Source: Dictyobacter arantiisoli (lineage in GTDB: Bacteria > Chloroflexota > Ktedonobacteria > Ktedonobacterales > Ktedonobacteraceae). Taken from it: a stretch of 64,000 nucleotides of DNA. The number at the start of each line of letters is the position of its first letter. Position 1 is the first letter of the stretch. The notes under the pieces were generated by a model. The model was not told the origin of the DNA, searched no databases, and worked only from the letters and a program-made list of their open reading frames with translations. This document shows, one piece after another, positions 3,507 through 55,672 of the stretch. Location: positions 1 to 64,000 of the forward strand of contig NZ_BIXY01000032.1 of assembly GCF_008326305.1 (NCBI RefSeq), written 5' to 3'. A program made the position numbers and the translations under genes.

Positions 3507-4379
3507 ATGTATTTCGAATATGCGCCGTATCCATTGCAAAAAACTTCGCTTGAGCAAGGCAAAAATGCTACGGGAACGGCTCCTGGCTCATCTACCAGCT
3601 ATAGCTATGGCTATAGCGGCACGGATCAGTCACAGCGCGTTACGAATACGGGGAACACAGCCGTCTATACCGGCCTGGGACTGAGCAGCGAGAATGTAGG
3701 AGGAACCACCTACGAGTATGTCCGCTGTAGCTGTGGCATGCTCAATAGTGAACGCACCCCGGATGGCAAAGTCTCCTACTATCTCTTTGATGGGCGAGGC
3801 TCCATCGTGGGCATGACTGATAGTGCCGGCAATCAAGTCAAGCACATTGACTATGATCCCTTTGGTGGCATCTCCTCGCAGAGTGGCACCGTTGCCAATC
3901 CCTGGCAATATGCTGGCGGCTACTATGATAGCACCACCGGGCTCACCAAGTTTGGCATTCGTTACTACGATCCACAGTTCGGTCGCTGGACACAGGCAAC
4001 ACCGATCGGTGGCAGCTTACAGGAGGCACTCAAGGCCAACCCATATGTCTATGCGGATAATAATCCGGTGAATAATGTCGATCCGAGTGGCGCTCTAACA
4101 CCCCTTGACTTTCTTGCCGGGGTTGCTGTTGGAGCAATTGTTGGCGTCTGGTCAGGTTTACAGGCTGGAGACAGTGGAGGGGCTTTGCTTAAAGATGCTG
4201 GTTGTGGGGCTTTAGGAGGAGCCATCACAGGAGCACTTGTTACCACACTAGGGCCATTCCTCGCCCCCGCTGGAGATGCAATAGGAAATTTTGCCGGAGA
4301 TGCTCTTGGGACAGCATTTAAAGGTTTTTTTCCATCAGCAAATGGAGGAATAGCAGGTTTCATTTGTGCCAAAGCATAA
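3507..4379 (+). CDS. Rhs core end with fourth tip
   Basis: A 290-residue frame, the longest Rhs piece seen whole. It includes more of the core ([20 protein letters not shown], then [16 protein letters not shown]) before the shared DYDPFGG...[10 protein letters not shown]...NPYVYADN block. The ATG at 3507 has no good ribosome binding site, and typical Rhs proteins are far longer, so this is another truncated cassette without its own start signals. The tip from about 4084 ([16 protein letters not shown]...) is Gly/Ala-rich with glycine-zipper-like spacing, a feature of membrane-inserting domains. No small membrane gene follows it. Instead there is a stem-loop and then mutL on the other strand. 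The core block 3690-4075 is nearly identical to 1040-1425. Confidence 0.75.
3690..4075 (+). repeat. Rhs core direct repeat, copy B
   Basis: Partner of 1040-1425. Differences are scattered and mostly at third codon positions. Confidence 0.85.
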
Positions 4380-53854: not shown

Positions 53855-54667
53855 TTATAATCTGGCATTGCGAAACTGTTGCCAGAGACGTCGCGCCAGT
53901 TGCGTCGCATCGCGCTGTAAGCCATAGCGCGCGACATATTTACAGATATTGTCGATATCGCGTTCTAACAGGGTATAAGCGTGCGAGTTAAAACGTGGAT
54001 CAACCGCCTGCGGGAAATCAATCACGGTGATTTGACCCTGCCAGTAGAGAATGTTGTAAGGTGAAAGGTCACCATGGATGATGTTTTTGGACAACCATAA
54101 CTCAATATTATCCATTAAAAGTTCGAACACGGGATAAACCTCGTGCGGTGCCAGGGTGACATGCTGTAAGGCTGCCGCTGGCTCCTGTTCCGCACCCAGA
54201 TACTCCATCAGGATCGCATGGCTGCTCTGAGCAATCGGTCTGGGGGTGGTTGCGCCAGCGGCATGCAGGACGGTCAGGGTGGCAAATTCATGCCCGACCC
54301 ACATGGCAAACTGTCCGTCACGGCCTACACGCGACTTATTTTTGATCGCCCGACGCAGATGTTGATCCGTTACAACACGCCCGTCTTGATAGACGGAATC
54401 GTTCTTAAAGCCACGATTATTGCGCGAACGATAGACTTTGGCCGCCAGATAGGGTACACCCTGCGACGGATGAGCCCGACAACAATAGACCGTCGCCTCT
54501 TTTCCGCTCTTCACGACATGGATAATTTCAGTAATCAAGCCATCAGCAAAGAAGCTATCCAGTGTCTCCTCCAGAGGATCACGCTGCTGCTCCTGTTCCT
54601 CTAATGCCAGCAAAGCCTCAAATTCTTCCTGCTCGTCCGATAAACGGAATTGTTTTCGCTTAGACAA
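53855..54667 (-). CDS. RIO-type serine/threonine kinase
   Basis: 270 residues. RIO1-like kinase core: VVKSGKEATVYCCRAHP (ATP site, Lys), AAKVYRSRNNRGFKNDSVYQ, catalytic IIHGDLSPYNILYW and metal-binding VIDFPQAVDPRFNSHA. RIO kinases function in ribosome maturation in archaea and eukaryotes. Bacterial members are rarer and their substrate is unknown. The start is a TTG at 54667, supported by AAAGGAG 13 bases upstream. No ATG lies nearby in frame. Upstream there are two terminators and a leader peptide gene. Confidence 0.92.
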   Translation of the reverse strand: MSKRKQFRLSDEQEEFEALLALEEQEQQRDPLEETLDSFFADGLITEIIHVVKSGKEATVYCCRAHPSQGVPYLAAKVYRSRNNRGFKNDSVYQDGRVVTDQHLRRAIKNKSRVGRDGQFAMWVGHEFATLTVLHAAGATTPRPIAQSSHAILMEYLGAEQEPAAALQHVTLAPHEVYPVFELLMDNIELWLSKNIIHGDLSPYNILYWQGQITVIDFPQAVDPRFNSHAYTLLERDIDNICKYVARYGLQRDATQLARRLWQQFRNARL

Positions 54668-54753
54668 AAATCATTACTCCTTTGATAATTGAATTGATGA
54701 CAAACGTTAATGCAGCTAAAAGCAAAAGCACGGACATAAGAATTGTTGTGCAT
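54601..54753 (-). CDS. Possible 50-residue upstream frame overlapping the kinase start
   Basis: ATG 54753 has a very strong site (AGGAGGT, 6-base spacing). The frame runs 67 bases into the kinase gene out of frame. The predicted product is Cys/Asn-rich without family match. A different short frame (54660-54737, MSVLLLLAALTFVINS...) encodes a 25-residue hydrophobic peptide that ends 3 bases before the kinase start. Which, if any, is translated is unclear. Confidence 0.3.
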   Translation of the reverse strand: MHNNSYVRAFAFSCINVCHQFNYQRSNDFCLSENNSVYRTSRKNLRLCWH

Positions 54754-54793
54754 GTGGCACCTCCTATAGATGAATAGATGCAGCATCTAGACA

Positions 54794-54833
54794 ATAAAAA
54801 AAAGGTCACGAGCATCACGCTCATGGCCTTTTG
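54794..54833 (-). terminator. Intrinsic terminator in the RIO kinase leader
   Basis: Minus-strand stem of 13 positions (one mismatch, one wobble; 54801-54813 with 54819-54831) followed by eight T. Confidence 0.75.
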
Positions 54834-54837
54834 ACAC

Positions 54838-54866
54838 AAAAAAAGCCATCTCTCCAGGAGATGACC
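54838..54866 (-). terminator. Second terminator in the RIO kinase leader
   Basis: Minus-strand stem CATCTC/GAGATG (54847-54852, 54858-54863) with a 5-base loop and seven T. Confidence 0.65.
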
Positions 54867-54903
54867 AGTTGTCAGGATTAGCAGGTTATTTCCTACTTAT
54901 ACT

Positions 54904-54978
54904 CTACCCGTGTAGAATACTCCCATACTTGCTACTGTGGCCTTCCCGGAGACGTGATGCAAAAGAAAATGTTTTCAT
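54904..54978 (-). CDS. 24-residue leader peptide
   Basis: ATG 54978 preceded by GAAGGAGAG with good spacing. The peptide is MKTFSFASRLREGHSSKYGS then ILHG and stop. A -10-like TACTTAT lies upstream on the minus strand. It sits before two terminators and the RIO kinase, an arrangement typical of ribosome-mediated attenuation. The peptide has no run of one amino acid, so a sensor for an amino acid is not obvious; sensing of ribosome stalling or an antibiotic is possible. Confidence 0.45.
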   Translation of the reverse strand: MKTFSFASRLREGHSSKYGSILHG

Positions 54979-55282
54979 GATGTCACTCTCCTTCGTGATA
55001 AGTATCAATAAACTGCAAATTCAAAGCCAAACAGTAACTTGAGGTTCTAAAGAGATTATGACAGATCGGGCACACTCTTGTCAATAACCAATGGATGCAA
55101 TTCAGGGCCCGCCGTCCCTCGCACCACTGCTTAAGCATGGTTATATGGTTTGAATAGTGAATAGGACTTTTGCGGCTGATCTATGAGAGTTACAACGCTG
55201 AACTGATAAGGTGCGTATTTCTAACAGTAGAGTCTTTAGCATGTGGATGCTTTATCAACAGGAAGTGAAAGAGAGAATCAAT
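54979..55282. promoter_or_regulatory. Divergent gap, leader peptide / DUF5808 gene
   Basis: Non-coding, should contain both promoters. TTGAAT and a TACTTAT-type -10 on the minus strand fit the leader. Confidence 0.4.
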
Positions 55283-55573: not shown

Positions 55574-55586
55574 TATGGATGGTAGG

Positions 55587-55648
55587 AAAAAGAGGGAGGA
55601 TGGATCTCCTGCATTCGCTTGCCATGGAGATCCATCCTCCCTCTTTTT
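55587..55648. terminator. Two-way terminator
   Basis: Perfect 23-bp arms (55587-55609, 55626-55648) flanked by A and T runs, between convergent genes. Confidence 0.85.
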
Positions 55649-55672
55649 TAAAGGATCATTCTTGATCTGCTA

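Follow-up and report, generated by a model that had tools for sequence, protein, structure and literature searches.

The trp, his and ilv attenuators follow a logic of exclusive pairings (1:2, 2:3 and 3:4) around a leader open reading frame (ORF). In the vmlR system of Bacillus subtilis (PMC9226507), which controls an ABC-F resistance factor, an anti-antiterminator hairpin contains a 3-codon upstream ORF (uORF); stalling of an initiating ribosome there, with a toeprint at +16, frees an antiterminator that acts against a single intrinsic terminator, and a further translational layer follows. In hflXr/rli80 of Listeria (PMC6310831) a small ORF overlaps the anti-antiterminator, an alternative terminator and antiterminator are present, the downstream gene, a GTPase, acts on ribosomes and the leader peptide contains RLR, a hallmark of macrolide leaders. 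Devices of this kind, comprising a leader ORF, an anti-antiterminator, an antiterminator and a terminator, are already known.

The unit described here precedes a RIO1-like kinase gene in a 64-kb window (the whole stretch of DNA that was analysed) of the 7.2 Mb genome of Dictyobacter arantiisoli, the nearest relatives of which are Dictyobacter species. The kinase gene and the leader array are all on the minus strand (Table 1). An earlier note on this DNA had claimed a 24-codon frame with a strong ribosome-binding site (RBS), two intrinsic terminators and a TTG-started RIO kinase, all of which are borne out by comparison with relatives. It had also claimed one or two overlapping short frames; one of these (uORF2) is conserved together with its Shine-Dalgarno (SD) sequence, whereas the other, a hydrophobic frame at 54660-54839, lacks a well-placed start of its own. 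The sole strong promoter-like site near the RIO gene on its strand is the one 5' of the leader. Terminator-like structures in the window alone number four compared with 3.4 expected from shuffles, which is no excess, and the weight of the case therefore rests on conservation.

Table 1. Features of the RIO kinase locus, in window coordinates.
Feature	Position	Strand	Remarks
Sigma-70 promoter TTGACA-18-CATAAT, TG before -10	55055-55084	minus	11/12 matches
Leader SD region GGAGAGTGA	54983-54991	minus	Can pair with M1; candidate anti-antiterminator
Leader ORF, 24 codons, MKTFSFASRLREGHSSKYGSILHG	54904-54978	minus	GAAGGAG 5' of ATG
Element M GCATCACGTCTCCGGGAAGGCCA, putative switch strand within leader ORF	54938-54960	minus	Two-frame conservation; pairs with RBS, T1 and T2
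M1, first 8 nt of element M	54953-54960	minus	
Terminator 1 (T1)	54844-54866	minus	Present in 14/14 complete loci
Terminator 2 (T2)	54800-54832	minus	Compensatory changes in 10/12 counted pairs
CGTGATGC, loop and top of T2	54812-54819	minus	Complementary to M1
AGGAGG, SD of uORF2	54760-54765	minus	
uORF2 (second upstream ORF)	54601-54753	minus	Overlaps RIO start, out of frame
RIO1-like kinase, TTG start	53855-54667	minus	SD AAGGAG at 54677-54682

Elsewhere in the window, a near-perfect long inverted repeat with T runs at its ends on both strands (55584-55653) sits between a DUF5808 gene (plus strand) and a UbiA gene (minus strand). It is probably a bidirectional terminator, and the microRNA-type Rfam matches that it causes in the window were rejected as spurious.

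The kinase matches the RIO1 family of Pfam over most of the protein (E = 3.7e-35; 121.7 bits against a cut-off of 22), and its translation contains the catalytic motifs HGDLSPYN and IDFPQ. Orthologs begin with LSKRK or MSKRK at the site of the TTG start. The closest solved structures are those of archaeal Rio1 (Archaeoglobus type, E about 1e-21). The RIO1 domain is common to the archaeal and eukaryotic RIO1 kinases, the PA4780 family of RIO1-like kinases in NCBIfam and the kinase in the window, although the match of the latter to the PA4780 family is below threshold (170 of 350 bits). In archaea and eukaryotes, RIO kinases are tied to maturation of the small ribosomal subunit; some bacteria carry them as well. 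The alcohol-dehydrogenase-like neighbour of the gene is also present in D. aurantiacus and is absent at the K. robiniae and Tengunoibacter loci; since the neighbour is not constant among relatives, the gene context gives no function. One genome of the same genus (G002) is without the short RIO kinase and has a longer paralog only (about 340-400 residues). Short ORFs with a strong SD apparently lie upstream of this longer paralog in some genomes, and the M motif described below is absent from the longer-paralog upstream regions inspected (L022, L023 and L032).

Full-length matches (54-75% identity) identify orthologs of the short RIO kinase in 14 relatives, and a partial match adds one from a further relative. 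Complete upstream DNA is available in 14 loci, the window included; L018, in which a run of N lies upstream yet the leader and M are visible, and L019, with unrelated DNA close upstream, were not usable in full. The sample amounts to about 11 non-redundant loci from a single order, the Ktedonobacterales. Wherever the DNA upstream of an ortholog is intact it contains the same array, in one case in another family of the order, and the succession of the parts is kept: sigma-70 promoter, leader ORF, two terminators and uORF2 overlapping the kinase start. In all 14 complete loci the leader ORF spans 20-31 codons and is preceded by a strong SD, TTGACA is located 88-106 nt 5' of the leader ATG in 13 of them, and two intrinsic terminators lie between leader ORF and gene in 13/14, with one clear terminator in L020, the most distant locus. 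Judged by this conservation, the leader and two-terminator array before the RIO kinase is confirmed as real and well beyond chance. uORF2, with its own SD, starts 52-86 nt before the kinase start; in 12/12 loci it continues beyond that start in a frame other than that of RIO and stops 41-112 nt into the gene. Multiplying the chances of an open frame over the loci gives about 7e-7, although the loci are not independent. It is conserved as an ORF and not as a peptide. Translation of the kinase is probably dampened by it or coupled to it.

A covariance model of the unit matched 14 RIO loci of the order at E < 1e-6 (one over the leader part only) and two strong-scoring non-RIO places; as its source sequences match by construction, the new information lies in these two extra places and in the lack of others. 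No further match above 35 bits was obtained in 400 genomes of the phylum, and weak matches elsewhere (e.g. G000:C20:50501) were rejected as a tRNA gene plus terminator or as plain tandem terminators. At the gathering score, neither the window unit (L064) nor a Tengunoibacter copy (L082) matched any Rfam family. That genome has, besides its RIO copy, a second unit that closely copies that of Ktedonobacter and has its own promoter (L082:3147-3354, G010:C1:4196146-4196353). It lies about 210 nt 5' of a Hen1-Pnkp RNA-repair operon (Hen1 at 3566 and Pnkp at 5050 in L082), the U run of its second terminator has been lost, and the unit is separated from Hen1 by a MITE-like inverted repeat (GTTTAGACTAA...TTAGTCTAAAC). 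Inspection of Hen1 loci from other genomes did not reveal the unit. A decayed copy, with RBS, leader and M and without terminators, is present in another Ktedonobacter genome (L083:5338-5521, G023:C2:1719337-1719520), where it adjoins genes that by eye are transposase-like. A search for conservation of a 5' hairpin ahead of the RBS gave energies no different from those of shuffles; a hairpin at the leader stop codon is clear in the window (z -2.85) and in some other loci, is not so in others and was rejected as a conserved element.

Every leader ORF contains the 23-nt element M (GCATCACGTCTCC-N5-GGCCA). It is read as GCA TCA CGT CTC (ASRL) in the window and six other loci and as CAT CAC GTC TCC (HHVS) in eight; the Leu codon is always CTC in the frame-0 loci, with no synonymous drift. 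Conservation in two frames with an invariant CTC indicates that the constraint acts on nucleotides, and thus that the RNA rather than the peptide is selected. The leader ORF, its SD and its start codon are always kept while peptide and frame vary, suggesting that translation matters and that the peptide does not. Conservation of the leader peptide and terminators, which had been put forward as a check, is accordingly divided: the ORF and the terminators are kept, whereas the peptide is not and the frame of M changes. Nucleotide constraint within a leader ORF can therefore outlast the reading frame, a property that separates RNA-acting from peptide-acting leaders.

The T2 loop and top carry CGTGATGC, to which M1 (GCATCACG) is complementary. 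In the alignment, 99% of the cells of M1:T2 are paired and double changes occur in four of the eight pairs, which was equalled in 0/500 shuffles. Compensated M1/T2 variants are found (GCATTGCG/CGCAATGC in Tengunoibacter, L015; GCATCGCA/TGCGATGT in L011; ACATCACG/CGTGATGT in L031), and duplex energies favour own-species over cross-species pairing (permutation p = 0.0003). One M1:T2 pair is broken in L016, which models poorly. M can also pair with T1, in a local duplex stronger than the T1 hairpin in ten of the 11 non-redundant loci that have both terminators; covariation of this pairing is weak (permutation p = 0.048). A third possible pairing joins M1 to the leader RBS (GGAGCGTG with CACG-N-CTCC; in the window, GGAGAGTGA with TCAC-G-TCTCC). 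It was chosen unaided by RNAalifold, with 92% of cells paired and double changes in two pairs, and its energy permutation is not significant (p = 0.14). As read from the sequence, these mutually exclusive pairings of M have the anatomy of a transcription attenuator.

Folding models of RNA cut just after the T2 loop give a probability of M1:T2 of at least 0.93 in nine of 11 loci. The value is 0.00 with a ribosome over M1 and at least 0.97 in ten of 11 loci with a ribosome at the start codon, and its mean falls to 0.01-0.14 when M is shuffled; M1:T2 is also favoured over M1:RBS when no ribosome is modelled. When full-length RNA is folded to equilibrium, the terminators prevail at any ribosome position in most loci, and equilibrium folding with ribosome footprints thus failed as a demonstration of the switch. 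This outcome implies that antitermination must be kinetic, occurring before the 3' arm of T2 emerges. Switching during transcription is usual for attenuators.

The preferred interpretation of the comparative evidence, with a probability of roughly 0.7, is that the RIO kinase is under a ribosome-controlled transcription attenuator with vmlR-like logic. RNA polymerase would start about 70 nt 5' of the leader ORF, and the nascent RNA would carry M, which could pair with the leader RBS as an anti-antiterminator or with T1 and next with the 5' arm and loop of T2 as an antiterminator. During normal translation of the leader, ribosomes would cover M, T1 and T2 would fold and transcription would end before the kinase. 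If a ribosome were held at the start codon of the leader, it would instead block the RBS with a footprint that stops short of M; the free M would then block both terminators and the RIO kinase would be transcribed, with uORF2 overlapping the kinase start as an added translational layer. Counted from the leader ATG, M1 has its first nucleotide between +19 and +34, always past the +16 toeprint reported for the vmlR uORF (PMC9226507), which makes the release of M by a start-held ribosome the most economical reading. Ribosome-mediated attenuation, as proposed in the earlier note, is thus upheld in its first part: the leader ORF, the terminators and the exclusive pairings are conserved and M1:T2 covaries, all of which is evident from sequence comparison, and transcription attenuation via a translated leader is strongly supported. 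Control by ribosome position, the ON/OFF polarity and kinetic switching are what we infer from this arrangement.

So interpreted, the RIO unit is like vmlR in that a short uORF would lie within the anti-antiterminator hairpin, a start-stalled ribosome would free the antiterminator against an intrinsic terminator and a translational layer would follow. It differs in its kinase target, its longer leader and its pair of terminators countered by a single strand; the anti-antiterminator partner would here be the RBS. With hflXr/rli80 it shares a small ORF overlapping the candidate anti-antiterminator, the alternative terminator and antiterminator and, in the window leader, RLR; however, RLR is not a conserved feature of the RIO leaders and the downstream gene encodes a kinase rather than a GTPase. 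The exclusive-pairing logic is common to the trp, his and ilv attenuators, but a run of regulatory codons is absent and neither peptide nor frame is conserved.

A resemblance to the leaders of antibiotic-resistance genes had also been suggested, and in a macrolide-type mechanism RLR would stall drug-bound ribosomes and so induce the kinase. RLR does occur in the leaders of the window (54946-54954), L017, L020 and L031, but these are only four of the 14 complete leaders; two others have RLQ, and in eight the same nucleotides are framed differently and read as HHVS-type. Moreover, footprint arithmetic places a ribosome stalled at RL/R over M, which predicts termination and not induction. Macrolide RLR sensing was therefore rejected as a conserved signal; with a peptide that is not conserved and two reading frames, the resemblance is an analogy only, and peptide sensing of this type is improbable here. 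The type itself may exist in the phylum: in another Chloroflexota family, an unrelated leader ORF (MTVNNTITIRLRIPSG...) with RLR and tandem terminators lies just before an ABC transporter ATPase gene (L113:1432-1720, G325:C27) and has the look of a separate attenuator of the macrolide type. Amino-acid sensing by the leader was ruled out, as no cluster of codons for one amino acid was found in the leader peptides.

It is similarly unlikely that a protein or ligand reads the attenuator, in a riboswitch-like manner or through kinase autoregulation, with the leader merely supplying ribosome traffic. That M and the T2 loop are conserved at the RNA level would suit such a reader, and the lack of Rfam matches at the gathering score leaves room for a new ligand RNA, but retention of the leader ORF, SD and start codon in 14/14 loci through changes of peptide and frame argues against it, as does the simple strand-exchange form of the unit, in the alignment of which no further conserved aptamer-like domain is seen. 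Least probable is that the unit is a separate short gene for a small RNA or protein, closed by ordinary terminators, which do win at equilibrium, and that RIO is expressed by readthrough or from an unseen promoter, since compensated M1:T2 complementarity would not be expected, the unit accompanies RIO in every genome tested, the leader peptide is not conserved and, near the gene, its strand has no strong promoter-like site other than the one before the leader.

Relative to the known devices, the new features are the kinase as target, a single strand that serves against two terminators, the two-frame conservation, the overlapping second ORF and the copy upstream of a Hen1-Pnkp operon; among the publications that a literature search listed, none joins RIO kinase and Ktedonobacter. 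The purpose of the ribosome-controlled attenuator would be to raise RIO kinase upon failed translation initiation or early elongation. A related Pnkp1-Rnl-Hen1 complex repairs ribotoxin-cut RNA (PMC4411300); a translation-damage signal would therefore suit the Hen1-Pnkp operon of Tengunoibacter, a single case that could be an accident. A ribosome-position attenuator before a bacterial RIO kinase would make a link to translation directly testable. More tentatively, and with considerable doubt, the unit could be a translation-initiation sensor specific to the Ktedonobacterales, in which stalls at the start codon would switch on ribosome- and RNA-maintenance genes (RIO and, in Tengunoibacter, Hen1-Pnkp), with one frame-independent strand beating two terminators in turn and the overlapping uORF acting as a second check.
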